From positions 1-20,638 of IMG/VR virus record IMGVR_UViG_3300042288_002227: 20,638 nucleotides of DNA. One strand, given 5' to 3'. The first letter of the stretch is position 1. Each line of letters starts with the position of its first letter. This document shows, piece after piece, positions 593-19,248 of the stretch. The DNA is from a virus. A program made the translations under genes and the position numbers. The notes under the pieces were generated by a model, which was given only the letters and a program-made list of their open reading frames with translations, was not told the origin of the DNA and did not search any database.

Positions 593-602
593 CGGCGGTT
601 CC

Positions 603-615
603 GTGTACTACCCGG
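603..615 (+). promoter_or_regulatory. Recurrent start-associated element, copy 1 (variant)
   Basis: GTGTACTACCCGG lies in the 24-base gap between the small and large terminase genes and ends one base before the terminase ATG. It differs from the other five copies at one core position (GTACTAC instead of GTAGTAC, which are reverse complements of each other). There is no clear Shine-Dalgarno sequence between it and the start. Its function is unknown. Confidence 0.55.
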
Positions 616-616
616 C

Positions 617-2086
617 ATGTGCTTCGCTGGAGAGGACTACGGCGACGCCTTCGGCGATGACCTCGACAGCGTCCTCGACGTAGCGGACGCCCTCCTCGAA
701 GAGGCGGCGGTCCACCCGCTCGACCAGGTGCGGTGGACGCCCCCGCAGATCGCGTTCCTGCGGTGCACCGCCGCGTTCTTCATGCTCCGGACGGGCAACC
801 AGTTTGGGAAGACCTGGTGCGGCGCCGCGGAGCTCATCTGGCGGTGCCTGGGCGCGCACCCGCACAAGCCCGTGCGGCAGGGGCCGATCGAGGCCTGGGT
901 CATCTGCAAGAGCTGGTCGCAGTCCATCGCGATCCAGAAGAAGATTTGGGCGCTGCTCCCTAAGGACGAAGTCGTCCCCGAGACGATGTTCAGCGACAAG
1001 AACGGGTTCGCGGGCGTTCAGAAGGCCGTCGTCTTCAAGAACGGCAGCGTCATCCGCATCAAGACGGTCGGCCAGGACACGCTCGACCTCGCCAGCGCCA
1101 CGATCCACTACGTCTGGATCGACGAGCCGCTTGGCGACGACGGCACGTTCTCCGAGCTGCAGATGCGGCTCCGCCGCACCGGCGGCGACATCGCGATCAC
1201 CATGACGCCGGCGACGACCGGGGACCTGTCCTGGCTCCGCAAGCTCGTCACCGACGGCCAGGTGGTGGACCTCCACTTCCGCATGGAGCCCGAGAACTTC
1301 GTCCCCGAGGGCGCGCTGGTCCCGCTGAAGACGGAGGACGGCCGCCCGATGGACGCGGCCTGGATCGAGTCGGAGATCGCGAAGACGCTCTCGTGGCAGC
1401 GGGCGGTGCGCTGTCACGGCGAGTGGGAGTACGCGACCACCGGCGCGGCCCTGGACGCGTTCGCTCGCGCGAAGCACGTGCGTCGCATCGTGGCCGAGGG
1501 GCTCCTGCCGAAGACGGTCGAGCTCGCCGCGGGCCTCGACTACGGCGAGGACGCGCTCCGCACGTGCGGCGTGCTGCTCTACATCGACTCGAGCGGGCTC
1601 TACCCACGAGTGTTTGCGATGGGGGAGTACGTCCCCCAGCAGGGCACGACCGTCGAGATGGACGCGGACGGCCTCCTTGAGATGCTTGGCGCCACCGGGG
1701 ACCGGTGGACGGATTTGGACCACGTGTGGGCGGACAAGGCCTACGAGGGGCGCACGACGCGGAAGAACGCGCGCCTGCTTACCGCGGCGGTGGCCCGCCG
1801 CCTCGGCGTCACCGGCGAGCTCCGGCCCGCGATCAAGGTCGCGAAGCGCGGCCTCAAGAAGGACCACTTCTGGCCGTCCGTGCGATGGCTTCACGAATGC
1901 ATGATTCGCCCCGGCCACTTCTACGTCGACGAGTCCTGCGCGTGGCTCATCGAGGCGCTGGAGAAGTGGGACGGCACGGACAAGTCCCGCTACAAGGACA
2001 TCCTCGACGCGCTCCGCTACGCCTGCCGTCATCTCTGGGGAGGGCGGCACGACGCGCCCGGCCGCGTCCTGCAGCGGAAGTTCTGA
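617..2086 (+). CDS. terL: Terminase large subunit (TerL)
   Basis: This is the ATP-driven DNA packaging motor and nuclease that acts at the portal vertex. The 489-residue protein shows the full architecture. A Walker A P-loop (TGNQFGKT) is at residues 59-66 and a Walker B strand ending in Asp-Glu (IHYVWIDE) at 163-170. A coupling motif (TMTPAT) follows at about 195-200. The C-terminal RNase H-like nuclease has acidic residues at D308 (GLDYG), around D373 (VWADK) and D461/D464 (KDILDALRY). The length is normal for the family. ATG at 617 is chosen because it follows the recurrent element directly; no purine-rich ribosome site precedes it. The gene stands alone between two copies of the element (603 and 2101). 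Confidence 0.96.
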   Translation: MCFAGEDYGDAFGDDLDSVLDVADALLEEAAVHPLDQVRWTPPQIAFLRCTAAFFMLRTGNQFGKTWCGAAELIWRCLGAHPHKPVRQGPIEAWVICKSWSQSIAIQKKIWALLPKDEVVPETMFSDKNGFAGVQKAVVFKNGSVIRIKTVGQDTLDLASATIHYVWIDEPLGDDGTFSELQMRLRRTGGDIAITMTPATTGDLSWLRKLVTDGQVVDLHFRMEPENFVPEGALVPLKTEDGRPMDAAWIESEIAKTLSWQRAVRCHGEWEYATTGAALDAFARAKHVRRIVAEGLLPKTVELAAGLDYGEDALRTCGVLLYIDSSGLYPRVFAMGEYVPQQGTTVEMDADGLLEMLGATGDRWTDLDHVWADKAYEGRTTRKNARLLTAAVARRLGVTGELRPAIKVAKRGLKKDHFWPSVRWLHECMIRPGHFYVDESCAWLIEALEKWDGTDKSRYKDILDALRYACRHLWGGRHDAPGRVLQRKF

Positions 2087-2100
2087 CCGGCGGCGCTCGC

Positions 2101-2114
2101 TGTGTAGTACCCCG
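2101..2114 (+). promoter_or_regulatory. Recurrent start-associated element, copy 2
   Basis: TGTGTAGTACCCCG sits in the 30-base gap between the large terminase and portal genes and ends two bases before the portal ATG at 2117. As with copy 1, it occupies the place where a ribosome binding site would be expected, and no other one is visible. Confidence 0.6.
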
Positions 2115-2116
2115 CG

Positions 2117-3577
2117 ATGGCCCTCGACCTCGCCTCGCGCCCCATGCTGCCCCCCGAGGACCGGAAGCGTGCGGAGCACCAAGCGCTCCGGACGCGCCTG
2201 CTCAACGGCCAGTGGGCCGACGATCTGGAGCGGGCGTTAGAGAAGCACATCCGGGCGGACCGGCGCCAGGCGTGGGGCATCGCCGAAATGTCACGGAACC
2301 CGTTCCGCTCGCTCTCGACCCAGATCGGCGGCGCCCTCTACCGGAGCCAGCCCAAGGTGCGGGGCACCGCGGGCACGACCGCCGAACAGCTTGCCGCGGC
2401 GGTCGAGGGCGCTGGTTTCTGGCAGCTCCAGCAGCGCGCGAGCACCGACCTCGTCGGCCTGCGCGAGGGCATCATCCGTGTGGACTGGAGCGAGCGCGGG
2501 GGCCTGCTCCACCGGCCCGTGCCGTGCGAGCTCGTGCACGTCGAGTCGCTCCACGAGGCGCCGGACGTGCCGGTGCGCATCGAGGAGATCCAGGCACGCC
2601 GGGACCCGCAGACCGGCGAGTTCGCTTGGGCGTGGGAGATCCTCGACGTCACCGACCTGGAGAACCCGGTCCACCGCATCCTGTCGGCCGACCGGTTGCA
2701 GGACTGGACGGCGTACAACGTCGGCGGCGACAAGTCTGGCGCGAACTACCAGTACCGCGACAGCGCCGGCCGCCCCTACATCCCGGCGGTGATGTACCAC
2801 GCCGAGCGCACCGGCCGGCTCTGGGACAGCTACTACGGCCTCGAGGCGGTGCTCGGCACGCTCACCATCGGCGTGCTCCTCACGTTCTGGGTGCACGGGG
2901 TCAAGGACGGGTCTTTCAGCACCGTCGTCGTCGTCGGCGGCCGCGTGGTGGGTCTGGAGATCGAAAGCCCGGGCGGCACGCGCACGAGCGTGATCTCGAC
3001 CGAGCCCGGCGCGTTCATCGAGGTGGCGCCCGTCGAGGACAGCAACATCCAGCCGCAGGTGATCCAGCTCAAGCCTGGGTTCGAGCCCGAAGCGCTTATG
3101 ACGGCGATCGGCATGTTCGAGTCTGGCCTCGCCGAGTACGCCGGCGTGTCCGCCGCGGACCTCGTGCGCACGGGCGCGGACCCGCGCTCCGGCGCATCCC
3201 TGTCGATCTCGCGCGAGGGCCTCCGCGGCGCCCAGGCGCGGTTCGAGCCCCAGCTCCGGCGCGGCGACTTGGCCGTGCTTGAGTGCTCGGCGAAGGTGCT
3301 GAACGCGACGACGGGCACGAGCCACCCGGAGAGCGGCTACGCCATCGAGTACCCGAGCCTCCCGCTGTCGGCCTCCGAGGTCGAGGCCCAGCGGAAGGAC
3401 CTGCTCGAGAAGGTGGGCGCGGGGCTGGAGTCCCTGGTGGACGCCTACATGAAGCTCCACCCGGGCGTGAACCGCGACCAGGCCAAGGCCGAGCTCCGGC
3501 GCATCCAGGAAGAGAACGCCGAGTTCGGCCCTGCGGCCGCGCTTTCCACCGCGCCTGCAGACCCGCTCCCCACCTGA
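2117..3577 (+). CDS. Portal protein
   Basis: This 486-residue protein is placed as the portal, the dodecameric ring at the capsid vertex through which DNA is packaged and ejected. Evidence is its position between the large terminase and the scaffold/capsid pair, its size, and its organisation: a helical N-terminus, a mixed alpha/beta centre with many aromatic residues, and a long helical, charged C-terminus (roughly 415-475). The C-terminus contains an ELRRIQEENAEF segment of the kind common at portal C-termini. The last residues are an Ala/Pro tail. It ends 12 bases before the scaffold gene, which has its own GAGG ribosome site, and the two are probably one transcript. No catalytic motif is expected in this family. 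The call is strong by context and moderate by sequence. Confidence 0.85.
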   Translation: MALDLASRPMLPPEDRKRAEHQALRTRLLNGQWADDLERALEKHIRADRRQAWGIAEMSRNPFRSLSTQIGGALYRSQPKVRGTAGTTAEQLAAAVEGAGFWQLQQRASTDLVGLREGIIRVDWSERGGLLHRPVPCELVHVESLHEAPDVPVRIEEIQARRDPQTGEFAWAWEILDVTDLENPVHRILSADRLQDWTAYNVGGDKSGANYQYRDSAGRPYIPAVMYHAERTGRLWDSYYGLEAVLGTLTIGVLLTFWVHGVKDGSFSTVVVVGGRVVGLEIESPGGTRTSVISTEPGAFIEVAPVEDSNIQPQVIQLKPGFEPEALMTAIGMFESGLAEYAGVSAADLVRTGADPRSGASLSISREGLRGAQARFEPQLRRGDLAVLECSAKVLNATTGTSHPESGYAIEYPSLPLSASEVEAQRKDLLEKVGAGLESLVDAYMKLHPGVNRDQAKAELRRIQEENAEFGPAAALSTAPADPLPT

Positions 3578-3589
3578 CCGAGGACACAC

Positions 3590-4252
3590 ATGCCGATCAC
3601 CCATGAAGGCGCCGAGTACTTCAGCAAGGCCGAGCTCGAGGACAAGATCAAGGACCGCGTCCGGAACACGCAGACCGAGCTGGAGACGCTGACCACCTGG
3701 AAGAAGCAGGTGGAGCCCGAGCTCGCGCGCGTGACCACCCTCGCCACCGAGGTGGAGACCTGGAAGGGCAAGGCCACCCAGGTCGAGACCCGGTACACGG
3801 CGGCGACGCAGTTCGGCATCACCGACACCGACACGCTTGAGGCCCTCGAGGAGGCGCACAAGAAGGCGATGGGCAAGGTCGCCGATCCCGCCGCGCGCGT
3901 GGACCTCGGCACGTACCTCGGGCAGGTGAAGAGCGATCCGACGCTCCTGCCGAGCTACCTCCGCGGCGTCTTCAGCCAGGGCGGCGGTGGCCAGCAGGGT
4001 GGCGGGCAGCAGGGCGCGGGCCAGCAGGGTGGCGCTGGCGGCGAGCAGGGTGGAGGCCAGGGCGGTGGGCAGCAGGGCGGCGGCCAGGGCGGCACGGGGA
4101 CCAACCGCCCCGCGTGGGCGTCGTCGTCGCAGAACCAGCAGCGCGTGGAGCCCGGCACGACGCCGGACTTCGCCTCGAAGGTCCAGGGCGCCAAAACGCT
4201 CGACGAGCTCGTCAAGCTCGACGCCGAGCGGCGCGCCGCCCGTCGCGGGTAA
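3590..4252 (+). CDS. Capsid scaffolding protein with Gly/Gln-rich tract
   Basis: This 220-residue protein probably directs assembly of the major capsid protein and is then removed. It has the usual place between portal and capsid genes. An acidic, heptad-like helical N-terminal half (residues 12-70) suits a coiled coil. A short basic helical C-terminus (about 195-220, ending DAERRAARRG) would suit contact with the capsid protein. No Ser-His-Asp protease motif is evident. The odd part is a low-complexity tract at about 130-168 made almost entirely of Gly and Gln, with one Glu and a few Ala, joining the two helical regions. A GAGG site at 3581-3584 supports ATG 3590. Scaffolds diverge fast, so the call rests on context, length and composition. 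Confidence 0.75.
   Translation: MPITHEGAEYFSKAELEDKIKDRVRNTQTELETLTTWKKQVEPELARVTTLATEVETWKGKATQVETRYTAATQFGITDTDTLEALEEAHKKAMGKVADPAARVDLGTYLGQVKSDPTLLPSYLRGVFSQGGGGQQGGGQQGAGQQGGAGGEQGGGQGGGQQGGGQGGTGTNRPAWASSSQNQQRVEPGTTPDFASKVQGAKTLDELVKLDAERRAARRG
3976..4095 (+). repeat. Degenerate tandem repeat coding the Gly/Gln tract
   Basis: Short imperfect units of the type GGCCAGCAGGGTGGC recur about eight times within the scaffold gene. They remain in frame and code GGQQG/GGGQ units. The units differ at third codon positions, so the repeat has drifted while the peptide composition has been kept. Repeats like this can change in number by replication slippage. Confidence 0.8.
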
Positions 4253-4265
4253 GCGCCCTCGCCGC

Positions 4266-4279
4266 TGTGTAGTACCCGG
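4266..4279 (+). promoter_or_regulatory. Recurrent start-associated element, copy 3
   Basis: TGTGTAGTACCCGG lies 13 bases after the scaffold stop codon and 76 bases before the capsid start, the largest spacing of the six copies. It is directly followed by two overlapping hairpins in the capsid leader, the first of which uses the last bases of the element. Confidence 0.6.
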
Positions 4280-4304
4280 GGACAGCCGCCCCGGTCGCAC
4301 CGGG
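4276..4304 (+). other. Two mutually exclusive hairpins in the capsid gene leader
   Basis: CCGGGG at 4276-4281 can pair with CCCCGG at 4289-4294 (loop of 7). Alternatively CCCGGT at 4290-4295 can pair with ACCGGG at 4299-4304 (loop of 3). The stems share bases 4290-4294, so only one can form at a time. This is visible by inspection; a role in expression is inference, and GC-rich DNA forms such stems easily. Confidence 0.45.
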
Positions 4305-4355
4305 CCCCAACAGCGACACGGCCGTCGTGGACCCCCAACCCGACAGGTGCTCACC

Positions 4356-5297
4356 ATGGCCATCGCCATCTTCTCCGCCGGCGCCCCCGTCTCCGGCAAC
4401 GGCCTCACCACCGAGGACCAGCTCAACGACCTCGTGCTCGCCGAGCGCGCGTTCGCCCTGGCCCTCGCCGACGTGGCCGACCTCTTCGACTCCCCGATCG
4501 TCTACATGACGGACGGAAGCGGTTCGAGCTCGCTCGTCCAGCGCCACCGCCAGCTCCTGCTCGGCTGGGGCATCTCCATGGACGCGACCGCGGCGGAAGA
4601 CACCGACGTGGCCGCCTCGTCCGTCACCGCCTACGACGCCGACGTCACCATCGCCCGCCGTTCGCTCCGCTTCGACCAGACCGGCCTCGCCCGGGCCGTC
4701 GGCGCCGCCTGGGGCTTCGACCCGATCGCGCTCGGCATGACCCTCGCGGACTCCTTCCGCGCGGGCCGCATGGGCTTGCTCGCCACCGCGGCCGCCGCCG
4801 CGTCCACCAACATCACCAGCACCGGCATGGGCAGCGTCGACGATCTGATCGACTGCATCGACTCGTTCACCGACGACGTCGGCGACCCGGGCCAGCTCTT
4901 CGGCATGCTCCGGCCGAAGACGGCGCAGTCGATCCGCGACTCGCTCCGCTCCGAGGTTGGCCCCCTGGCGAACCGCGGCGACGTGCAGGCCTTCCTGGCG
5001 AAGGGTGCCGAGAACCTCATGGGCGTTCTCTGCTTCCAGAGCACGAAGGTGCTCTCCGCGGGCGGGTACTTCCAGAACGCCGTGATGACCGCGGGCGCGT
5101 TCGCCTACAGCATCGCGCGGCCCCAGGCCCCGCTCGGCGGCAACGCCATCGTGATGGCGCCCACCGACATGCCGCTGCTCATCGAGATTGAGCGCGACGC
5201 TTCCAAGGACAGCTACCAGATCGTGGGCAACGGGTACGACGGCGTCGCCATCCGCGAGGAGCGCCGCATCCGCGGCCTGCTCGGCGCCACCTCGTAG
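4356..5297 (+). CDS. Major capsid protein (HK97-fold candidate)
   Basis: This 313-residue protein is the likely shell subunit. It follows the scaffold gene, is the right size for a capsid protein without an N-terminal delta domain, and has an alternating alpha/beta pattern. Its C-terminus includes a hydrophobic strand, PLLIEIERD (about 273-281), followed by a VGNGYDGVAIREERRI segment like the end of HK97-fold subunits. ATG 4356 is supported by an AGGTG site at 4345-4349, and the first residues (MAIAIFSAGA) read naturally. A 103-base leader with the recurrent element and hairpins precedes it and a hairpin-rich 130-base gap follows. The most abundant protein of the particle is thus the gene with the most non-coding sequence on both sides. 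Confidence 0.85.
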   Translation: MAIAIFSAGAPVSGNGLTTEDQLNDLVLAERAFALALADVADLFDSPIVYMTDGSGSSSLVQRHRQLLLGWGISMDATAAEDTDVAASSVTAYDADVTIARRSLRFDQTGLARAVGAAWGFDPIALGMTLADSFRAGRMGLLATAAAAASTNITSTGMGSVDDLIDCIDSFTDDVGDPGQLFGMLRPKTAQSIRDSLRSEVGPLANRGDVQAFLAKGAENLMGVLCFQSTKVLSAGGYFQNAVMTAGAFAYSIARPQAPLGGNAIVMAPTDMPLLIEIERDASKDSYQIVGNGYDGVAIREERRIRGLLGATS

Positions 5298-5302
5298 CAC
5301 GC

Positions 5303-5355
5303 CTCGGGCGGCGGCTCCGGCGGCACGGGAGTTGTGTCCGCCGGGTCCGCCCGAG
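5303..5355 (+). terminator. Large stem-loop after the capsid gene
   Basis: CTCGGGCGG (5303-5311) pairs perfectly with CCGCCCGAG (5347-5355). Inside it CCGGCGG (5317-5323) pairs with CCGCCGG (5338-5344), leaving a 14-base loop. No T-run follows, so this is not a classic intrinsic terminator. It may be a partial terminator, an RNA processing signal or a 3' stabiliser for the capsid message. Confidence 0.55.
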
Positions 5356-5372
5356 CCGCCTGCCTCTGGCCC

Positions 5373-5399
5373 GGCCCGTACCCCGCGAGGGGACGGGCC
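5373..5399 (+). terminator. Second stem-loop after the capsid gene
   Basis: GGCCCGT (5373-5379) pairs with ACGGGCC (5393-5399). After a bulged A, CCCC (5381-5384) pairs with GGGG (5389-5392) around a GCGA loop. This 11-bp GC-rich stem has no U tract behind it. It ends 28 bases before the next start codon and, with the previous stem, fills most of the gap 5298-5427. Confidence 0.5.
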
Positions 5400-5427
5400 C
5401 TCGGCGTCAGAACCCCCGAGGACACAC

Positions 5428-6132
5428 ATGGCCAAGAACACGAGCACCACTGGCGCCGGATCGATCGGCGTAAACGCGGACGGCTTCGCCGAACAGCGGT
5501 CCGTGAGCCGCGCCGCATTGGGCGGCAAGCTCCCCGACTTCAACAAAGACGGGACCCTCGGCCGCCACCGCATGCTCTTCCTCGGGGCCCACTCGAGAAG
5601 CTGGGAGCTCATCGAGGTCGAGGGCGCTTGGCGGCTCCTGCCTGTCCTCAAGCCCCTGTTTGTGCAGCCAGGCGTCTGGGTGCGCAGCGCGCCGAAGGGC
5701 CAGTCGCCTGACCCGTCGTTCATGCTCGCGAAGAACGAGCGCGCCGGGTTTTCCGTCCTCCGGGACACCGACTCGTACCTGTACGAGATCGACGGCGTCG
5801 GCGGAACCAAAGGCTACTTCCTCCGCTGGGAGAAGGTGCGCGTCTACGGCGACGGGGCCTTCGATGTCGTCATCGACCAGGCCGCCCGCGACAGCTTCCG
5901 CCTCGGCCTCGTCGAGCGGGGCCTCGTCGAGGCGCCGCGCGAGTCCGTGATCTCCGAGCTTCGGAGCCGCCTGGTCCGCCTCAAGCAGCGCGCCATCCGG
6001 GGCAAGGTCGACGACGTGAAGGCGGACGCCGAGCGGCGCCTCGCCGGCCTCGAGGAGGCAATCAAGCCGAAGGGCGGCGGACGAGCTCGTGGCGGCGAGA
6101 AGGCGGCCGAGTCCGCCGGGACGGCGGCGTGA
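5428..6132 (+). CDS. Conserved-position structural protein of unknown function (post-capsid)
   Basis: I do not recognise a family for this 234-residue protein. Its place between the capsid and connector genes suggests a head-associated, decoration or connector role. The first part (about 1-150) is mixed with many aromatic and beta-prone segments (e.g. LFLGAHSRSWELIEVEGAW). Residues about 150-210 are helical and charged, and the last 25 residues are a Lys/Arg/Gly/Ala-rich tail, possibly for binding nucleic acid or a scaffold. The start is ATG 5428 because it has the same GAGGACACACATG context as the scaffold gene; the frame is open further left but runs into the hairpin region. It ends with a GTGA overlap into a 54-codon ORF. 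Confidence 0.7.
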   Translation: MAKNTSTTGAGSIGVNADGFAEQRSVSRAALGGKLPDFNKDGTLGRHRMLFLGAHSRSWELIEVEGAWRLLPVLKPLFVQPGVWVRSAPKGQSPDPSFMLAKNERAGFSVLRDTDSYLYEIDGVGGTKGYFLRWEKVRVYGDGAFDVVIDQAARDSFRLGLVERGLVEAPRESVISELRSRLVRLKQRAIRGKVDDVKADAERRLAGLEEAIKPKGGGRARGGEKAAESAGTAA

Positions 6133-6293
6133 GCGGCCTCGGCGAGGGCGAGAAGCAGGGCGGTCGCGACCAGATCGACCGCACCACCAAGTACATGATC
6201 GAAAAGGGCGGCGTCCCCGCGGACGTGGCGAAGAAGCTCGCCCGCGACGCCCGCATCCGCAACGAGCAGCGCGAGAAGGGAGACCGCAAGTGA
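6129..6293 (+). CDS. Small 54-residue protein in the head-tail connector region
   Basis: This short, highly charged ORF (MSGLGEGEKQ...REKGDRK) has no recognised function. It is supported by exact coupling at both ends: its GTG overlaps the stop of the preceding gene (GTGA, 6129-6132) and its TGA overlaps the GTG of the next gene (GTGA, 6290-6293). Composition is Lys/Arg/Glu/Asp-rich, with a predicted helix at about 18-50 (TTKYMIEKGGVPADVAKKLARDARIR). It fills a stretch that would otherwise be an unexplained 157-base gap in a tightly packed operon. It is short enough to be missed by gene callers. Confidence 0.65.
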   Translation: MSGLGEGEKQGGRDQIDRTTKYMIEKGGVPADVAKKLARDARIRNEQREKGDRK

Positions 6294-7051
6294 GCAACGC
6301 GGAGACGTCCTACTCGGCTCGCATCGCCTACCCAGACCTCCTGGAGCGCGCGCGGACGCAGACCGTCTCGCTGGAGATCTACCGGTCCGGCGCGCTCGTG
6401 GCGCCGAGCTCGGGCACGTTCACGTTGTACGACTCGGCCAGTGCCGAGATCGTGCCTGCGGCGGCGGTGACGATCGCGGGCGGCATCGCCACGTACTCGC
6501 TGGGCGCGTCGTCGCTCCCGGCGACGCTTGCCCTCGGCCGCGGCTACCGCGAGGCCTGGGCGCTCGTGCTCGACGGGGTGACGCGCACGTACCACCGCGA
6601 CGCGGCGCTCGTGCTGCACGCGGCCTTCCCGGTCATCACGGACGCGGACCTGACGGGGCTCTACTCCGATCTTGACCGCCACCTGGCGAGCGGGACGACC
6701 ACCTTCCAGCCGAAGATCGACGAGGCCTGGAAGCGCATCGTCGGGCGGCTTGAGCAGATGGGCGTGCTGCTCGAGCACGTCATCACGAGCTGGTCTCTGC
6801 GGGAGGTGCATCTCGAGCTCACGTTCCACCTCATCGCGCTCGACTTCCACCGCGCCCAGGGTGGCCGCTGGGGCGAGCTCGCCGGGTCGCACAAGAAGGA
6901 GTTCGAGATCGCCCTCGGGCGCATGAGCTTCGTGCGGGGCACCGGAGGGACCGGGCAGGCCGACAGCGACGATCGGAGGGCGGCGAACAAGGGCGTCACG
7001 TACGTGAACGCCTCGCCGCTCACCTCGTGGCGGGGCTTCGGCGGCCTGTGA
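6290..7051 (+). CDS. Head-tail connector / adaptor-like protein
   Basis: This 253-residue protein is probably part of the neck between portal and tail. The N-terminal half (about 20-112) looks like a beta-sandwich of short alternating strands. The C-terminal half (about 115-230) is helical, with a pattern (TDADLTGLYSDLDRHL, then EAWKRIVGRLEQMG) like the helix bundles of head completion adaptors. The GTG start at 6290 overlaps the stop of the small preceding ORF and has an AAGGGAG ribosome site at about 6276-6282. The assignment is inferred from position and helix pattern. A fused decoration domain at the N-terminus is an alternative reading. Confidence 0.6.
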   Translation: MSNAETSYSARIAYPDLLERARTQTVSLEIYRSGALVAPSSGTFTLYDSASAEIVPAAAVTIAGGIATYSLGASSLPATLALGRGYREAWALVLDGVTRTYHRDAALVLHAAFPVITDADLTGLYSDLDRHLASGTTTFQPKIDEAWKRIVGRLEQMGVLLEHVITSWSLREVHLELTFHLIALDFHRAQGGRWGELAGSHKKEFEIALGRMSFVRGTGGTGQADSDDRRAANKGVTYVNASPLTSWRGFGGL

Positions 7052-7485
7052 GCGCGCTCGCGGTCGCCACCATCCGGCAGCGGTGCGCCGCCTCCATCCT
7101 CGCGGCGCTGACTGCGGACGGGTGGCAGGAGTCGACCAGCACCTGGGACCGCTTCGGCGCCAACGAGGGCGACAACCTCCTGCACAAGGGCTTCGCCGTC
7201 GGGGTGCCCGGGTGGACCTTCCCGCAGGGCCGCCAGAAGCAGAGCGAGGGCGCCGTCTGCGAGACGCGCGTGAGCGTGAAGTGGGCCTACAACATCGGGG
7301 CGCTCGACCAGGTCACCAGCTACGACGAGGCGCTCGCCGCGGCGCAGACCATCACGATGTACGCGCGTCGAATCGCGGGCGTTTCCGGCGCCGTGCTCGT
7401 CTCCGCGGACCACGCCGAGGACGACCAGGGCTGGATCATGGGTGAGGTCGTGCTGCGCGTGATCCACCTATTCGCGTTGAGCTGA
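7048..7485 (+). CDS. Putative tail terminator / completion protein
   Basis: This 145-residue protein occupies the position usually held by the tail terminator that caps the tail tube before it joins the head. It starts with a helix (ATIRQRCAASILAALTADGW) followed by a beta-rich stretch and ends with a strand (GEVVLRVIHLFALS), a layout typical of the small alpha/beta terminator fold. GTG 7048 is chosen because it overlaps the previous stop as GTGA; an in-frame GTG at 7027 is possible but lies deeper in the upstream gene. It ends just before copy 4 of the recurrent element, closing the head/neck sub-unit. Confidence 0.55.
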   Translation: MSALAVATIRQRCAASILAALTADGWQESTSTWDRFGANEGDNLLHKGFAVGVPGWTFPQGRQKQSEGAVCETRVSVKWAYNIGALDQVTSYDEALAAAQTITMYARRIAGVSGAVLVSADHAEDDQGWIMGEVVLRVIHLFALS

Positions 7486-7493
7486 CGCTCCGC

Positions 7494-7507
7494 TGTGTAG
7501 TACCCGC
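7494..7507 (+). promoter_or_regulatory. Recurrent start-associated element, copy 4
   Basis: TGTGTAGTACCCGC lies 8 bases after the putative tail terminator stop and 14 bases before the next ATG (7522). Here a GAGGG ribosome site (about 7509-7513) is present between element and start, so the element is distinct from the ribosome binding site. Confidence 0.6.
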
Positions 7508-7521
7508 CGAGGGTTCAGACC

Positions 7522-8472
7522 ATGGCCGACAGCACCCCCGAGATCGGGCCCAATTTCCGAGACAAGCTCGTCAAGGCCGAGGGGCTCCGCCTCTCCGACA
7601 TCGGCGACCGCGCAACGACGGACTACGCCGAAGTGATGGTCGGGGACGGCGTCCCCGAGGGCGCGTACGGACGCGCAGCGGGCACCACCATGTTCTGGCT
7701 GAACAAGGCGGCCGTCAGCACGCTCTTCGCGCTCTGGGCGACCATCGACGGCGGGACCAACTGGTTCAACGTCGCGATCAAGGACGGCCAGCGCTTCTCG
7801 CTCGACTGGACGGCAGGGAGCCGCGGCAAGCCCGGCGTCAACGCGGACATCCACTCCGCGACGGAGGCCACCCGCGAGATCGCCGACCCCGACTTTGAGG
7901 TGCTCGGCACGAACGCCACCAGCGCGTGCGTCGCGTACTACGCCGAGGGGGGCATCACCCTCACCACCACGGCGGCCTCCGGCGACCAGGTCATCCTGGT
8001 CCCGCACCTGGACGCGAACCAGAGCGCCTGGCAGCAGGTGACCTGGGGCACGGACAAGCAGACCGCGTGGGAGTGCACGGTGACCACGCCCGCCACGATC
8101 ACGTCGATGATCATCTGGGCGGGCCTCAAGCTCACGAACACCTCCGTTGCCGCGACGGACGACAACCAGGCCTTCCTCCGCTACGAGGCCGGCGTCAACG
8201 GCGGTGAGTGGCAGGCCATCACCTCGATCGCCAACGTCGACACGACCACCGACAGCAACGTGCTCGTCCAGGCGTCGACCCGGTACACGCTGCGCATCGT
8301 CATCGACGCGAGCCGCATCGCGCGGCTGTACATCAACGGCGTGCTCATCGTGACGACCACGGCGCTCACGGACGCGATGGACTTCATCCCGTACATCGGC
8401 GTGCAGACGGCGACGACGGCGGCGCGGTCCCTCCATGTCCACCGCCAGGCCATCAGCCGGATGATCGGCTGA
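7522..8472 (+). CDS. Structural protein with ConA-like lectin/glucanase-type domain
   Basis: This 316-residue protein is probably exposed on the virion (decoration or side fibre). Residues about 126-316 look like a concanavalin A-like jelly-roll: repeated beta-strands with features common in such phage proteins (DQVILVPHLDANQSAW, WAGLKLTNT, DDNQAFLRYEAGVNGGEW, IDASRIARLYINGVLI). The N-terminal about 125 residues form a separate module ending in a GKPGVNADI...TREIADPDF linker. No catalytic residues can be assigned, so a binding rather than enzymatic role is inferred. It is the first gene after copy 4 of the recurrent element and has a GAGGG ribosome site. A lectin-like gene between the neck and tail tube genes is a less common position than the tail tip. 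Confidence 0.7.
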   Translation: MADSTPEIGPNFRDKLVKAEGLRLSDIGDRATTDYAEVMVGDGVPEGAYGRAAGTTMFWLNKAAVSTLFALWATIDGGTNWFNVAIKDGQRFSLDWTAGSRGKPGVNADIHSATEATREIADPDFEVLGTNATSACVAYYAEGGITLTTTAASGDQVILVPHLDANQSAWQQVTWGTDKQTAWECTVTTPATITSMIIWAGLKLTNTSVAATDDNQAFLRYEAGVNGGEWQAITSIANVDTTTDSNVLVQASTRYTLRIVIDASRIARLYINGVLIVTTTALTDAMDFIPYIGVQTATTAARSLHVHRQAISRMIG

Positions 8473-8524
8473 ACCAGACGGAGCTGCTCGACGCGACCGG
8501 ACCCACCTCTGACGGAGACCGCTC

Positions 8525-9046: not shown

Positions 9047-9059
9047 TCCGGAGGCTCCC

Positions 9060-9548: not shown

Positions 9549-9561
9549 CCGAGGAACCTCG

Positions 9562-10824: not shown

Positions 10825-10825
10825 C

Positions 10826-12757: not shown

Positions 12758-15726
12758 GCACCCTGTTCGTTCGCCCTGGCCACACGCACACGGCGTCGCG
12801 CGTTCTCTCCGCCACCTCCGAGGCCGGGCTTACCGTGGCCCCGCCGACGCCTGGCACATCGAACCTCGGGCAGCTCCGCCTCCGCGCCACCGGGAACCCG
12901 GTGGCCGCGGCGGCGCTCGACGTGAAGCTCCAGACGGGCGGCAACGCGAGCGGGTACGCGCTGGTCACCGGCTCCGGCCAAGGCCTCGGCGCCGCGGCGA
13001 TCTGGAAGCGCACCACCGACGCCGCCGGCGCTGGCACGCTGGATTGGCGCGGCTACGTCGACACGCCCTACCTCGTGCGGGTCGACTACCCAGTCGCCTA
13101 CGGCACCGGCGTCGGCCGCCCGTCGACGCCGCGGACGCTCGCGAACGGCGACCTCGGGTTCGTCACGTCCCACGCGCCGACCAGCGCGAGCACGTTCACG
13201 TTCACCCGCGTGACGACTGCTGGGGTCGCGTCCACGGTGACCATCGACGCCACGTCGACGACCTCCGACAAGCAGAGCGACTTCGTCGTGCTCCCGAACG
13301 GCCGGCTCGTCGTCGTGCGCGCGCTGAGCCTCTCGCTCACCCGGTTTTCCTCGGACGACGACGGCGTGACCTGGTCCGCGTCCTCGTCGTGCGGCACGGT
13401 GACGTCGAGCCAGGACATGGTCTCGCTCGAGTACGTGGACGACCTGCTCGTCATGGTCGTCGCCTCCTCGACGGGGAGCGCCGTGACCGAGGTCCGCGTG
13501 AGCCAGGACGAGGGCTACAACTGGACGACGGTCGACTCCAGCCAGACGCTCCGCAACGTGCGCACGGCAGTCACCGCCAGCGGCAAGGTCCTCGCCATCT
13601 CGCTCGTTGGCAGCGCCCCCGAGGTGCGCACCATCGCCCCGGGCGGTGGGCTGTCGACCACGGGCGTGGACGCCGATCTCACGTGCAACAGCGGCCGGCT
13701 GGCGATCGTGACGCGCGACGACGGCGTCGTGTGGGCCTTCGCGACGAACAGCACCGCAGGGAGCCACGTCGACATCGACGCGTCCTGCTCCCTCGACGGG
13801 GGGGAGACGTGGACCAACCCGCTCGGCGGGCAGAAGGTGGTGAACCTGAACAGCACGAACACGAACGCGGGCTGGCGCGCGATCTCGGCTGGCACGTGGG
13901 CGGGCCGCGTCGTCATCCTGGCGCTCTCTCGCTCCTCGGGCGGCGGTGCGTCCGACTACGCCATGCACCTCTACACGCTCGGCGGCTGGGAGACCGTGAC
14001 GGAGGGCGGCAACGTCGGCAGCGTGATCGAGACGTACAACGCAGGGTACATCCCCGTCGACTACCCGGACGCCCTGGCCACGCCCTGGACGCGCACCAAC
14101 ACCGGCGCCGGGGCGACGGTCACCAACGAGGGGCCGCTCCGCTTCGTCTCCACCGGCGCCAACGCGACTTACTACCTGGCGCCGACGGCGGTGCTCGCGG
14201 CCTCCGACGCGGGCGGGACCTACAAGGTCCGCTACCGGTGCCGCCAGGTCAGCGGCGGCTCCGTGGCCGTCACGTCGAACGGCTTCCGCTTCTCCGTCTC
14301 GGACGGGTCCGGCAACCACCAGGGCTTCATCCTCCGCATGTCCACGACGCAGTTCCAGATCGTGGACACGTCGGGCACGAACATCAGCCTCATCACGGCC
14401 GATATGACCATCGCGACGGAGTTCCTCTTCGCTTTTGCGCACGATTACGTCGCAGGCGTCAGCGGCCGGCTCGCCTACTGGTATCGGCAGGATGGCAGCT
14501 CAAAATGGACCGCCGGCCCGGTCTCGACCGTGCCTGAGTACGCGGTGGTCGGCAACTCGCAGCTCCGGCTTGGCGGAAGCTCGGCCGTCGCTGGGACGCA
14601 CGACTGCTACTTCATCGGCGTCTCCGGCTCCTCGGACAACCTGGAGGCCGGCTACACCAACCCGAACGACCTCCGGGGGCGCGCCCTCGGGACGCTCGCC
14701 GACTACTACCTCTCCGACGGGATCTACCTGGGCGGCCGCAACATGGGCGGCGTGCCGGGCGACACGTACACTGTCGCGACCACGTACCAGTTCGGGCGGG
14801 AGAGCATCTGGCACGAGCTCCGGCCCTCGCGGAAGTGTCACAGCGCCAGCGACAACGTGAGCTGGAACGTTGTGTTCGATGCCGGCTCGGGCGACACGTT
14901 CCGGGGAGACACCGCGGGCCTGTTCGGGACAAACTTCCGCAGCGCGACGCTCCAGTTCAACACCTCCGACTCGTGGGGCACGCCCGCGCTCGCGCTGTCG
15001 CTCGACGCCACCCTCGACACTCGCACCATCGGCGCGGGCAACCGGGGCCCCGGCTACGTCGGCCCCACGAGCTCGCCGAGCTGGAGGCCGGGCCAGTTCC
15101 GGAGCGACGGCGACGGCCACCGCTTCTTCCTGGACGTCGGCGGCACCGTCTACGAGATCACCGACAACGACGCCGATCGGATCTACGTCACCGGCGCGGA
15201 CTTCTCGGCGGCCTCGGGCAGCATGTACGTCTTCGGCGATCACATGGCGCTCAAGACGAACTTCGTGCTGTACCGCTTCATGCGGCTGCTTGTCGGTGCC
15301 CAGCAGACCCCGCCGGCGGACAACTGCTACCACGTCGGGACGCTGATCTTCGATCGCGCCTTGACGCCGGCGCAGACCTACGACCACGGCTTCGTCGACC
15401 GCATCGAGCCGCGCGTGGAGGTCATGGAGGCCGACAGCGGCTACCGCACGTCGGCGCGCATCGGCCCCCGGCGCCGCACGCTGGCGATCCAGTGGGCACC
15501 GATCGCCCACGCCTCCGCCAGCTTCGATCTGGAGCTCCGGCTCCGTGACTTCTACGCCGCGCTGGAAGGGGCGCACCGGCCGATCATGTTCTGGCGCGAC
15601 ACCGACGACTTCGCGACCGCCGGGCTCTACCGGGTCGTCGGGACGTACCAGGCGACGAACGTCTGGGGCGAGGGGACTACGGCGCTCACGCGCGTGGACC
15701 AGCTCGTCCTCGAGGAGTGTCTCTGA
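12754..15726 (+). CDS. Large tail-tip protein with sialidase-type Asp-box propeller and hub-like C-terminus
   Basis: This 990-residue protein probably sits at the tail tip and contacts the cell surface. Three canonical Asp-boxes (S-x-D-x-G-x-T/N-W) are visible: SDDDGVTW at 200-207, SQDEGYNW at 250-257 and SLDGGETW at 346-353, marking a BNR-type beta-propeller over about 110-430. A second beta-rich region (about 430-635) looks like a ConA-like sandwich. The last 112 residues (from about 879; MFWRDTDDFATAGLYRV, ending VDQLVLEECL) look like a distal-tail/hub domain, consistent with the gene's place right after the tape measure. I could not identify the sialidase RIP motif or arginine triad, so sugar binding is as likely as cleavage. 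ATG 12754 overlaps the tape measure stop (ATGA). Confidence 0.75.
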   Translation: MSTLFVRPGHTHTASRVLSATSEAGLTVAPPTPGTSNLGQLRLRATGNPVAAAALDVKLQTGGNASGYALVTGSGQGLGAAAIWKRTTDAAGAGTLDWRGYVDTPYLVRVDYPVAYGTGVGRPSTPRTLANGDLGFVTSHAPTSASTFTFTRVTTAGVASTVTIDATSTTSDKQSDFVVLPNGRLVVVRALSLSLTRFSSDDDGVTWSASSSCGTVTSSQDMVSLEYVDDLLVMVVASSTGSAVTEVRVSQDEGYNWTTVDSSQTLRNVRTAVTASGKVLAISLVGSAPEVRTIAPGGGLSTTGVDADLTCNSGRLAIVTRDDGVVWAFATNSTAGSHVDIDASCSLDGGETWTNPLGGQKVVNLNSTNTNAGWRAISAGTWAGRVVILALSRSSGGGASDYAMHLYTLGGWETVTEGGNVGSVIETYNAGYIPVDYPDALATPWTRTNTGAGATVTNEGPLRFVSTGANATYYLAPTAVLAASDAGGTYKVRYRCRQVSGGSVAVTSNGFRFSVSDGSGNHQGFILRMSTTQFQIVDTSGTNISLITADMTIATEFLFAFAHDYVAGVSGRLAYWYRQDGSSKWTAGPVSTVPEYAVVGNSQLRLGGSSAVAGTHDCYFIGVSGSSDNLEAGYTNPNDLRGRALGTLADYYLSDGIYLGGRNMGGVPGDTYTVATTYQFGRESIWHELRPSRKCHSASDNVSWNVVFDAGSGDTFRGDTAGLFGTNFRSATLQFNTSDSWGTPALALSLDATLDTRTIGAGNRGPGYVGPTSSPSWRPGQFRSDGDGHRFFLDVGGTVYEITDNDADRIYVTGADFSAASGSMYVFGDHMALKTNFVLYRFMRLLVGAQQTPPADNCYHVGTLIFDRALTPAQTYDHGFVDRIEPRVEVMEADSGYRTSARIGPRRRTLAIQWAPIAHASASFDLELRLRDFYAALEGAHRPIMFWRDTDDFATAGLYRVVGTYQATNVWGEGTTALTRVDQLVLEECL

Positions 15727-17288
15727 TGCGGCTCACGCAGGCCGAAGCCGAGCTCGAGGACGGGCATCGCCCCGTGTGGCTCCTCACGCTCACGCTCCCC
15801 GACGGGCGCGCCCTGCGCCTGGCGAGCCGGCCGATGCGGGTGCTCACCCGGCGCGGCGCGGTGCTCTCGTTCGACCCGTTCCTCGCCGGCGTCAGCGAGT
15901 TCGACCAAGAGCTCGACGTGTTCAGCCTCGACGGCGTGGGCGCGCTCACCCAGGCCCAGGTGGAGATGGTTACGCCGGGCACCTCGCTCGGCGCGCTCCA
16001 GGGCGACTGGCACCACGTCACCGCCGCGACCGCCGAGCTCGCGCTGCTCTGGGCGGGCCAGGTCTGGGACGATCGCCTCGTCGCGCTCGCGGGCGGCATC
16101 GCCGGTGCGGAGTTCGGTGTGGCCGACCAAGTGTCCACGCTCTCGCTGGAGACGACTCCGCCCGCCACGTCCGAGACGATCGGCGACGACGCGCGCGACG
16201 TGGGCGCCGACTGGCCCACTCCGGTCGACACGGCGGGCGACGACATGTCGGACCTCGAGGGGAAAAAGTACGTCCACGTGTACGGCGCCGCGAAGTCGGT
16301 CCCCTGCTACAAGGTGGGCGAGGTCTCCTCGGGCACCAACCGGCTGATCCTCTGCGGGCACCACCTGCCCCGTACGGGCGCCTCGTACACGGTGACGGTG
16401 TACGAGGACGGCGAGTCGCCGACTCCGTACATCGTCACGAACGGCACGATCAACGGCAAGGAATACGCCTACGTCGAGGGCGCAGCCGCCTTCCTGTCGA
16501 CAAACGGGGCGTACACCTGGGACGCGACGCACGGCGGCATCGCCGCCGCCGACGGCGCCGACCGGCCGGCGCTCGGCGCCGAGGGCGTCATCCGCCGCCT
16601 CCTCGTCGACTCCGGCCTGGCGGTGGACTGGCGCGCGACGGAGCCGGCGCTCGCCCGGCTCAGGGACTGGCGCATCGCGATCTACACGGACCAGGAGGCG
16701 ACGGCGATCGAGGTGCTCCGGGACCGCGTTCTTCGGCACCTCCCAGTGATCGAGATGAACAGCGGCAAGGGCCTCTGGCTGGCCTACTGCGACCCGCACG
16801 TCGCTGTCCCCGAGGCGCACCTCACGCTCGGCCAGCAGCTCCTCGGGCGCGTCGGCCGCATGGGGGTGTCCGACCTTGAGGCCATCCGGAACGCGTTCAC
16901 CGTGAACTACGCGCCCGAGGCCACCTCCGGCGATCTCATGGAGACCGTCACCCTGGACGCGTCCACGTCCGCGCTCTGCGCCCTCTCCCAGCAGCTCTAC
17001 GGCGTGCGCGCCGACGCCCCCGTCGACTGCGACGCCACCGACGACGCGACGACCGCGCTCCGCATCGCGGGCGCCCGGGCGAGCCGCCTCGCCATGCCGC
17101 GGCGCGTGCTCCAGTACGAGCTCGCCGCGGACGTGTACTGGCTGCAGGCCGGCGCCGTCGTGACGATCACCGACGACGGCTACGGCCTGACGCGCCAGCG
17201 CGCCGTGTGCACGCGGGTCTCGCGCACCATGGTCCCGTTCCGCGCGCAGTTCGACCTCGTGGACCGCACGCCTAACGGGCTTGTGTAG
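15726..17288 (+). CDS. Tail hub / baseplate-type minor tail protein
   Basis: This 520-residue protein is the second tip gene after the tape measure, where siphophages code the tail hub or tail-associated protein. It opens with a strand-rich domain (HRPVWLLTLTLPDGRALRLA). A helical segment follows around residues 305-340 (IAIYTDQEATAIEVLRDRVL, then RHLPVIEMNSGKGLWLAY) of the kind found in hub proteins that organise a trimer. It ends with beta-strands. No peptidase or lysozyme motif is visible. ATG 15726 is chosen over GTG 15717 because it overlaps the previous stop (TGATG) and has a GAGGAG site 8 bases upstream. Its TAG stop codon (17286-17288) lies inside copy 5 of the recurrent element. Confidence 0.7.
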   Translation: MRLTQAEAELEDGHRPVWLLTLTLPDGRALRLASRPMRVLTRRGAVLSFDPFLAGVSEFDQELDVFSLDGVGALTQAQVEMVTPGTSLGALQGDWHHVTAATAELALLWAGQVWDDRLVALAGGIAGAEFGVADQVSTLSLETTPPATSETIGDDARDVGADWPTPVDTAGDDMSDLEGKKYVHVYGAAKSVPCYKVGEVSSGTNRLILCGHHLPRTGASYTVTVYEDGESPTPYIVTNGTINGKEYAYVEGAAAFLSTNGAYTWDATHGGIAAADGADRPALGAEGVIRRLLVDSGLAVDWRATEPALARLRDWRIAIYTDQEATAIEVLRDRVLRHLPVIEMNSGKGLWLAYCDPHVAVPEAHLTLGQQLLGRVGRMGVSDLEAIRNAFTVNYAPEATSGDLMETVTLDASTSALCALSQQLYGVRADAPVDCDATDDATTALRIAGARASRLAMPRRVLQYELAADVYWLQAGAVVTITDDGYGLTRQRAVCTRVSRTMVPFRAQFDLVDRTPNGLV

Positions 17289-17295
17289 TACCGGG
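17282..17295 (+). promoter_or_regulatory. Recurrent start-associated element, copy 5
   Basis: TGTGTAGTACCGGG overlaps the 3' end of the tail hub gene: bases 17286-17288 are its TAG stop. It ends three bases before the tail fibre ATG at 17299. Its CGGGAG end may also serve as ribosome site, which joins element, stop codon and start signal in under 20 bases. Confidence 0.6.
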
Positions 17296-17298
17296 AGC

Positions 17299-18021
17299 AT
17301 GAACACCCTCCTGTCCCGGATGCGCGCGCGGCTGTACGCGCTCGCCGCGCTCGTCGACCCGCCGTCGCCCGGCGCCAGCCTGTACTACGGCACGAACAGC
17401 GGCGGGACGAAGGGCTTCCACGCCCTGGGCGGCGGCGGCGGCGGCACCACGGACCACGCCGCGCTCACGTCCAACCTGGGGTGGACCTCGAGCGCCCACA
17501 CCGGCACCGCCTCGCGCCTCGCCAGCTTCGACGGATCGGGCGCCGCCGCCTACACGCAGATCGGCGCGGCCGGCGGCGTCCAGGCGTGGGACGCCGACCT
17601 CGACGGCTACGCCGCCCTCGCGTCCGCCGGCCTCGTCGCGCGCACCGGTGCGGGCACGGCGGCGGCGCGCACCCTGACCGCCGGCTCGGGTCAGGTCAAC
17701 GTCAGCAACGGCGACGGGGTCGCCGGCAACCCGACCGTCGACCTCGCCTACGCGGGCGCGCTCCGCGAGACCGGCGGCCCTACGACGCTCACGGTGGGCG
17801 CGATGGCCGACGGTGAGATCCTCATCCGCTCTGGCTCAACCCTCGTCACCCTCGCCGCGCCTGCGTCCGGCGACCGCCAAGGCCGCGTCCTCGGCTACGC
17901 CGGCACCGCGCTCGCCTGGATCGCCATGCCCCTCGTGAGTGTGCTCGGGCGCGGCCCCATCGTCATCGAGGGGCGCGGCATTGTCCACGTGCCCGACTGC
18001 GTCACCGTTGGAGTGCTGTAA
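17299..18021 (+). CDS. Tail fibre-type protein
   Basis: This 240-residue protein has modules typical of phage tail fibres: a DHAALTSNLGWTSSAHTGTA segment (52-71), GYAALASAGLVARTGAGTAA (103-122), and RTLTAGSGQVNVSNGDGVAG (124-143) followed by NPTVDL. These Gly/Ala/Thr-rich beta repeats form trimeric fibre shafts. A poly-Gly stretch (about 44-49) links a short helical N-terminus (MNTLLSRMRARLYALAAL), which may anchor it to the tip. The C-terminus is short and beta-rich with no recognised receptor-binding domain. ATG 17299 is chosen for the GGGAG just upstream; an in-frame TTG at 17281 would lie inside the hub gene. It ends with TAATG coupling to the next gene. Confidence 0.8.
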   Translation: MNTLLSRMRARLYALAALVDPPSPGASLYYGTNSGGTKGFHALGGGGGGTTDHAALTSNLGWTSSAHTGTASRLASFDGSGAAAYTQIGAAGGVQAWDADLDGYAALASAGLVARTGAGTAAARTLTAGSGQVNVSNGDGVAGNPTVDLAYAGALRETGGPTTLTVGAMADGEILIRSGSTLVTLAAPASGDRQGRVLGYAGTALAWIAMPLVSVLGRGPIVIEGRGIVHVPDCVTVGVL

Positions 18022-18998
18022 TGCCGACCCGCTACCACGTCGGGACGAACACGCCGGCCTCGGATAACGCCGCCGGCATCATGGCGTCGCTGGCTACCCT
18101 GTTCGGCGTCACCCAGGACGTCGACATCGCGGGTGCGCCGGGCGTCGTCTCGGCGATGACGTGGACGCGCGACACCACGGCCGGCTCCCAGGCAATCTAC
18201 TCGTCGGCCTTCGGGCCTCGAAACTGCCGAATCATCATCGCCGTCCACGACTCGGGCACGCCTTCGCCCTCGCCTACGATGGTGGCCTCGGCGGACACGT
18301 ACACGGCGGCGAACATCCTGATCGGGCTCTGCGACAACGCGAGCGGGGCCTACGCCGGATGGAACCAAGCCGCGCCGTTTACCGGCTGCACGTTCGCCGG
18401 CTACTACCGGCTTGGGCCGAGCGCAGGCGCGTCCACGGGCGGCGGCATCCGGGCGTGGGTGAGCACGAAGGACTTGTGGCTCCAGTACCGCTCCACGACG
18501 AGCGTTGTGCAGGCGGCTTGCGCCGGCGCCGTCGTCACGGGCGCCACTGGCTACCAGGAGAGCGACGGCTACCGGTACGGGCTCGCGGTGTCGGGCATCG
18601 GCGACATGAGCGGCCAGTTTCGGTCCAACACGAACTCGATCGCCGGGTTTTTCGGAAAGAACGGCACCACAAACGGCACACCCCACTTCGGGCTCTACGC
18701 CGTGGGCGGCACCGCGTGGCAGACGGTGCGCATGGAGCACACTCGCGTGGCCGCCGCAACCGTCGACATGGGCAAATGGGCCTCCTCCGGGCCGGTCGCG
18801 AGCCGCACGGGCATCTCGATCCAGCGGTCGGCGACCCCGGAGAACTCCGTTGGGTCGTGGTCCGGTGTGAGCGACGGCCCGGCGGCGCAGACGGCCTCGA
18901 TCGTCAACGACTCTGCGGCGGCGCTGTGGGGGTGGGTGTTCGGCTCGCAACCAAGCGGCGCCGGTGAGGACTCGGTCGTCATCGCGCGGGTGTACTGA
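18021..18998 (+). CDS. Tail-tip or receptor-binding protein of unknown family
   Basis: This 325-residue protein is Gly/Ala/Ser/Thr-rich and almost wholly beta-stranded, with frequent aromatic residues and few long helices (e.g. GYYRLGPSAGASTGGGIRAW, then VSTKDLWLQYR). I recognise no named domain. Its start overlaps the tail fibre stop by one base (TAATG, 18019-18023) and its own stop overlaps the next start (TGATG), so it belongs to the fibre sub-unit. A globular tip or adhesin that sits on the preceding short fibre is the simplest reading, and would explain why that fibre has no obvious head domain. It could equally be another decoration or baseplate protein. Confidence 0.6.
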   Translation: MPTRYHVGTNTPASDNAAGIMASLATLFGVTQDVDIAGAPGVVSAMTWTRDTTAGSQAIYSSAFGPRNCRIIIAVHDSGTPSPSPTMVASADTYTAANILIGLCDNASGAYAGWNQAAPFTGCTFAGYYRLGPSAGASTGGGIRAWVSTKDLWLQYRSTTSVVQAACAGAVVTGATGYQESDGYRYGLAVSGIGDMSGQFRSNTNSIAGFFGKNGTTNGTPHFGLYAVGGTAWQTVRMEHTRVAAATVDMGKWASSGPVASRTGISIQRSATPENSVGSWSGVSDGPAAQTASIVNDSAAALWGWVFGSQPSGAGEDSVVIARVY

Positions 18999-19198
18999 TG
19001 CTGTCGTCTGTGCTCGCCACCGAGGAGGCCTGGGGCACCGTGTCTCGCATCGTGGCGCCGCCCGCGCATGTCGAGGCGCTACGCGAGGAGCTCCTCGACG
19101 CCTCGCGCGGCGACCTCGACGCGATGGTCGAGCCGGGCGCCCCCGGACGCCTCGTCGTCACCGCAGGGGGCATCGACTGGCCCTTCGGCGGGCTCTGA
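18998..19198 (+). CDS. Small hypothetical protein at the end of the fibre sub-unit
   Basis: This 66-residue protein is of unknown function. It has one amphipathic acidic helix (about 22-43, PAHVEALREELLDASRGDLD) followed by a strand and a Trp-Pro-Phe end. ATG 18998 overlaps the previous stop as TGATG; there is no ribosome site of its own, so translation is probably coupled. It ends 36 bases before copy 6 of the recurrent element. Small proteins at the end of a fibre group can be assembly chaperones, but nothing in the sequence shows this. Confidence 0.55.
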   Translation: MLSSVLATEEAWGTVSRIVAPPAHVEALREELLDASRGDLDAMVEPGAPGRLVVTAGGIDWPFGGL

Positions 19199-19234
19199 CG
19201 CGCGCGGGTTCCTCGTGCATGACGCTCATCTGGC

Positions 19235-19248
19235 TGTGTAGTACCGGG
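19235..19248 (+). promoter_or_regulatory. Recurrent start-associated element, copy 6
   Basis: TGTGTAGTACCGGG lies in the 63-base gap between the fibre sub-unit and the candidate lysis cassette, 13 bases before the holin-like ATG at 19262. A separate AGGAG ribosome site lies between them. The first half of this gap (19199-19234) holds no other recognisable feature. Confidence 0.6.

Follow-up and report, generated by a model that had tools for sequence, protein, structure and literature searches.

Recurrent -10-like blocks at the late gene junctions of an uncultured phage as putative single-element promoters with a linked candidate sigma factor

Introduction

Single-element promoters read by phage-encoded sigma factors are known from phiEco32 and T4. 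The gp36 promoter of phiEco32 consists of one element, tAATGTAtA, with no -35 sequence and with starts 6–8 bp downstream, and the missing -35 has been tied to the absence of sigma region 4 (PMC8948821). Phage 7-11, which is related to phiEco32, has a different consensus at comparable places in its genome (PMC8948821). Late promoters of T4 also have no -35; they are read by gp55, and gp33 serves as a region 4 mimic that does not read DNA (PMC2988020).

The DNA analysed in this work, hereafter the window, is a complete IMG/VR record of 20,638 b with a G+C content of 71%. It carries six copies of a short word, TGTGTAGTACC in its exact form, and these copies are considered, with a probability of about 0.77, to be single-element late promoters read by the phage's own sigma factor. 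On this reading, phiEco32 gp36 and T4 gp55 appear to be the closest known systems, by likeness in the way of working. As in phiEco32, a phage sigma would serve about six promoters that stand before middle and late genes and consist of one -10 block. However, the phage family is a different one, tAATGTAtA is unrelated to TGTGTAGTACC, the gene order here is sigma, small terminase, large terminase and portal, and many of the promoters appear leaderless. With T4 gp55, which binds where sigma region 2 binds, the locus would share a -10-only promoter and a small phage sigma-like protein, whereas the consensus is different and T4, a myovirus, has dozens of late promoters along with gp33 and the sliding clamp gp45. 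The original prediction had spoken of an undescribed regulatory system, which is overstated because phiEco32 and T4 already provide phage-sigma promoters of the single-element type.

Gene surroundings of the window

The genes of the window run in one direction as small terminase, large terminase, portal, scaffold-like gene, capsid and tail genes, followed by a long protein that matches BNR weakly, small genes and a YkuD-like protein. The small terminase subunit (62..592, + strand) is assigned from its position and from relatives, and the large terminase (617..2086, + strand), downstream of the first element, from Pfam Terminase_6N (8e-9) and phrog_2 (2e-14). The names portal, scaffold and capsid come from gene order and alignment within the family, with no database hit. 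The phage record collection held no near match to the window; large terminase matches there were at most 30% identical, and a capsid search returned nothing. Among genome contigs, a portal search gave no relative and a terminase search gave two proteobacterial MAG contigs (L140, L141) at 36%. A literature search found no description of the phage family or of the TGTGTAGTACC word. Additionally, exact 15-mer scans of IMG/VR yielded some 40 further contigs, most of which had a single isolated hit, and none was used. Among them, L101, L106, L118 and L120 have a second hit with one mismatch, L102 is a local tandem repeat, and L100 ends at the 15-mer hit and has ORFs unlike the window genes by eye.

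Copies of the element at late gene junctions

Five exact copies of TGTGTAGTACC start at 2101, 4266, 7494, 17282 and 19235, all five on the + strand, exactly where the original prediction had placed five identical 11-mers; the minus strand of the window has none. Dinucleotide shuffles gave a mean of 0.00 and a maximum of 0 exact copies. When up to two mismatches are allowed, the window has 6 hits vs a shuffle mean of 1.03 and a maximum of 4. The additional hit is the sixth copy, CGTGTACTACC, which shows the two differences that had been predicted but starts at 602, not at 603. Four copies (2101, 4266, 7494 and 19235) are directly preceded by GC, as had also been noted. All six lie at junctions, on the + strand and ahead of late genes, in keeping with the predicted placement at or between gene boundaries, and scatter inside genes is absent. 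The 17282 copy covers the final 7 nt of the upstream ORF and the other five are intergenic.

The imperfect copy before the large terminase (CGTGTACTACCCG, 602..614, + strand) is the weakest of the six; its first base lies 15 nt from the start codon, and the ATG at 617 falls on the predicted +1. The putative promoter element before the portal (TGTGTAGTACCCC, 2101..2113, + strand) carries the -10-like hexamer TAGTAC at 2105-2110, lies 16 nt from the ATG at 2117, which is its predicted and leaderless start, and is kept in L008, L009, L078 and L011. Before the capsid gene (4356), the putative element (TGTGTAGTACCCG, 4266..4278, + strand, TAGTAC at 4270-4275) lies 90 nt upstream with a predicted start at A 4282. 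The same 13-mer, TGTGTAGTACCCG, recurs at 7494..7506 (+ strand), 28 nt before gene 7522, with a predicted start at A 7510, and is kept in L078. The remaining two putative elements share the form TGTGTAGTACCGG. The first, at 17282..17294 (+ strand), lies 17 nt before gene 17299, whose ATG is the predicted start; the second, at 19235..19247 (+ strand), lies 27 nt before gene 19262, with a predicted start at A 19251 and an AGGAG ahead of the ATG. The TAG of the block also serves the upstream gene as its stop codon in the window (17286-17288) and in L092 (10160-10162), and likewise at the scaffold/capsid junction of L012, L013 and L092.

Conservation and lineage-specific words

The exact word recurs before the portal, the capsid and the 7522 homologue in L008, L009 and L078, at each junction present, in phages whose portal is 82% identical to that of the window. 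L011 carries CGTGTAGTACCC ahead of portal and capsid, and L010 a different word, GCTGTAGAGCGG, at two junctions. L092 has TCGGTAGCAC at four junctions; in L012-L014 and L092-L094, this word or a near form stands before the portal, capsid, 7522 and 12754 homologues, where those junctions are present. At the large terminase junction of L009, L010, L011 and L012, no copy of the element was seen. The test that the original prediction had offered for its own refutation came out in its favour, with the element kept at the same junctions in close relatives, no scatter inside genes, and other lineages with a word of their own. As the word changes in step at several loci, a single trans-acting reader may be inferred.

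In L009 (2033-2683) and L008 (about 2350-2650), large terminase and portal are separated by extra genes, which differ between the two phages, and the element remains with the portal gene in both.

More distant lineages have their own word, common to their own junctions. In L156, blocks of TCGGTACCACG or near forms occur at 1420, 2217, 3710, 5922, 6978, 7908 and 9579, all on the + strand, and the one at 2217 lies ahead of its terminase. L155 has CGGTAG[CA]ACG at 4126, 6365, 8358, 9429, 10350 and 11931, again all on the + strand. L159 carries CCGGTAGCACG, exact or with one mismatch, at eight junctions, all on the + strand, and L018 has ACGTCCGGTAC in three places. De novo word counts in G015, a relative with ordinary promoters, gave coding repeats only, and its portal and capsid leaders share no common word. 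This phage encodes an integrase (L096:12802-13917) and is probably temperate.

Anatomy of the block

When 20 sites were aligned on TA, information was limited to positions -4 to +12 (about 16 bp), with nothing upstream, and the strongest positions read G-TA-(G)-N-A-C. A -35 sequence is undetectable, as the best TTGACA match 15–19 nt upstream of the element sites averages 2.42 of 6 vs a background of 2.56; the same test on ten blocks from L155, L156, L159, L018 and L041 gave none. Ten distant relatives, with terminases 34–56% identical to that of the window, scored 3–6 at the capsid junction, with 5 or 6 in eight of the ten, scores biased in their favour because the hexamers were chosen by eye from the alignment. 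Those hexamers (e.g. TAGGCT, TAGCCT, TAAGAT, TAGCGT) lie 77–99 nt before the capsid ATG, and the element hexamer in the window's clade lies 65–88 nt before it. Since the two occupy a matching place at the capsid junction, upstream of the same hairpin leader, the block stands in the position of the homologues' -10 box and has positional homology with sigma-70-type promoters.

The sites do not fit housekeeping sigma-70 promoters of the usual kind, with a TTGACA-like -35 and a TANNNT -10, as no -35 is detectable and the hexamers end in C. Reading of extended -10 promoters by the host's own sigma, with no phage specificity factor, is unlikely. It would accord with the normal TTGACA/TANNNT promoters at the same place in distant relatives and with the GTGTAG shared with L015 and L016. 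However, the hexamers TAGTAC, TAGCAC and TAGAGC are without the final T, the extended -10 position is without TG, and a phage sigma gene is linked; moreover, 11–13 identical bases including the discriminator, together with concerted change between lineages, go beyond the demands of a host sigma.

Mycobacteriophage stoperators are asymmetric 13-bp words, intergenic and in a single orientation. The original prediction had drawn an analogy with them, and repressor sites of this cluster A type, which would silence the late block in a lysogen, share with the element an asymmetric, intergenic word of about 13 bp in one orientation; the integrase of G015 also suits them. Such a role is nevertheless quite improbable, as the block keeps a fixed position 5–7 nt from a start codon or an A, like the -10 box of the homologues, and the junctions would be left without any other promoter. 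The element further differs from stoperators in being tied to predicted transcription starts and linked to a sigma gene, and no repressor was seen in the sequence examined. The analogy becomes dispensable because the block sits where homologous promoters have their -10 box. The same positional homology to sigma-70 -10 boxes, along with the linked sigma gene, makes a phage RNA polymerase, whether single-subunit (T7-like) or of another kind, a very improbable reader of the blocks, with about half of the genome covered, even though a contiguous block, no -35 and lineage-specific words would be in line with it.

Predicted starts and the capsid leader

If TAGTAC occupies -12 to -7, the +1 position lies at +12 counted from its T. 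At leadered sites this position is mostly an A (4282, 7510 and 19251 in the window), and at gene-adjacent sites the first base of the ATG lies at +11 to +13, again counted from the T of TA; transcription is predicted from the sequence to start at these positions. A Shine-Dalgarno core accompanies 1 of 10 adjacent starts vs 14 of 24 others (Fisher p = 0.02, in a small sample that includes orthologues). The sole adjacent site scored with one is that of L094, where the GGAG precedes the element. Action at the RNA level, either in processing or as a translation signal close to the start codon, draws on the several copies that lie 15–17 nt before an ATG without a Shine-Dalgarno and on the upstream stop codon inside some copies. 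It is very improbable, given that the distance to the start codon ranges from 15 to 90 nt, that most leadered copies have a Shine-Dalgarno of their own and that a plain promoter -10 takes the place of the word in distant relatives.

The capsid mRNA leader contains a conserved hairpin (CCGGTCGCACCGG, 4291..4303, + strand). The hairpin, CNGGTCGCACCNG, is kept in the window's clade and in distant relatives with other promoters, with leaders at 4282-4355 in the window and in L015, L016, L019-L026, L032 and L156. In 4 of 16 sequences, one pair of the stem has changed on both sides, and pairing across the short stem amounts to 82.5%. Rfam gave no match for the window and seven relatives. In several relatives the stem seems to be longer and to extend to the Shine-Dalgarno, so control of capsid translation is possible.

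Candidate sigma factor beside the terminase

The original prediction expected the binding protein outside the window, and a candidate indeed lies 158 nt past its edge. Contig L007 is 99.91% identical to the window over 6,656 b and reaches 788 b further left. Its ORF at L007:17-631 (204 aa) ends 158 b before window base 1, upstream of the small terminase, and matches Sigma70_r2 (1.8e-4) and sigma70-ECF (4e-4), both under the curated cut-offs of Pfam and NCBIfam. Its single PHROG match is phrog_351, a phage sigma (0.083). An AlphaFold model from the single sequence (pLDDT 69) aligns almost solely to sigma factors, best to SigD region 4 (Z 8.4, 2.0 A over 61 residues), with a region-4-like C-terminal end. 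As Z 8.4 is middling for a helical protein, the weight is carried by the sequence matches and synteny. The product is probably a dedicated phage sigma and the reader of the blocks. Like Sigma-70/ECF factors (PF04542, TIGR02937), it has region 2 matches and a modelled C-terminal part that superposes on ECF region 4, whereas ECF sigmas usually require a -35, which the promoters here are without.

A search for close relatives with this protein recovered L007 alone, and its homologues were reached solely through a small terminase search, which gave L155-L159. Immediately ahead of the small terminase, Sigma70_r2 exceeds the Pfam cut-off (PF04542) in L155 (1.7e-6), L156 (3.9e-7) and L158, the last two of which are near-duplicates of a single phage. 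In L018, a match under the cut-off (7e-5) also lies upstream of the small terminase. The L155 sigma matches the L007 sigma in sequence (3e-15), and both begin MNA-M-ELPM. The sigmas of L155 (135 aa) and L156 (129 aa) stop after region 2; the region-4-like end of the L007 sigma is a difference from phiEco32. Between sigma and small terminase, L007 has at about 664-676 the sequence CGTGTAGGGCC, which resembles the element, and a block is present at this place in L155 (4126), L156 (1420) and L018 (394) as well.

The correspondence between sigma and promoter type has exceptions. L047 combines a sigma region 2 match with a TTGACG-type capsid promoter, and L041 has blocks at three junctions yet a weak sigma-like ORF (436-1101; 0.018-0.08). 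G015, with ordinary promoters, has no sigma match in 34 kb, including 3.7 kb upstream of the terminase. Because the contigs are fragments, which in several lineages do not reach upstream of the terminase, the association of sigma with promoter type is suggestive and carries no statistical weight. The L041 ORF (L041:436-1101) is region 2-like with an N-terminal extension and a weak match to Rv0623-like factors, and is followed by an ORF that is RuvC-like by eye (L041:1315-1861). In the relatives L056-L074, TIGR02937 hits just upstream of the large terminase cover only the region 4 helix-turn-helix part; they were rejected as sigma factors and are probably DNA-binding motifs of the small terminase.

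Proposed mechanism and significance

The sigma encoded directly ahead of the small terminase would dock on the host RNA polymerase and read a single block of about 13–16 bp, TGTGTAGTACCSG, comprising a -10 region (TAGTAC, -12 to -7) and a discriminator. Recognition of the block would need no -35 sequence, and transcription would start on an A about 6 nt beyond the hexamer. Where the promoter abuts the gene (terminase, portal, 17299), the start A would be the A of the ATG, giving a leaderless mRNA; the capsid, 7522 and 19262 promoters would give an mRNA with a leader. The late block would be initiated at several points, for packaging, portal and scaffold, capsid, tail, fibre and lysis.

Promoter function and reading by the L007 sigma are what we infer from these observations. 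Conservation, the -10-like position and the linked region 2 gene strongly support the phage-specific late promoter that had been one of the options predicted. On the other side stand the location of the sigma gene on an overlapping contig, scores below curated cut-offs and the imperfect terminase copy. The region-4-like end of the L007 sigma, which would usually read a -35, also counts against this promoter reading, as do L047 and L041, in which sigma and promoter type are mismatched. Overall, the observation behind the original prediction is confirmed and its interpretation is partly supported.

A broader proposal, held at even odds, is that late genes of this uncultured phage family are run by a minimal, mostly region-2-only sigma encoded beside the terminase. 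The specificity of this sigma would have drifted repeatedly (TGTGTAGTACC, GCTGTAGAGC, TCGGTAGCAC, TCGGTACCAC, ACGTCCGGTAC), and phage promoters would have replaced host-type -35/-10 ones while leaving the mRNA leader undisturbed. If true, this would constitute a natural series of sigma-promoter co-evolution in which many late mRNAs are leaderless. Different words at the same junctions, together with homologous sigmas upstream of the terminase, form a ready comparison set, which bears on the way in which residues of region 2 determine recognition of a -10 block without a -35 and on the phage-specific replacement of host-type promoters. Candidate orthogonal promoter-sigma pairs are supplied as well. 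Furthermore, a phage family without a close cultured relative gains a candidate late-transcription switch, consisting of a small sigma and the word it probably reads.
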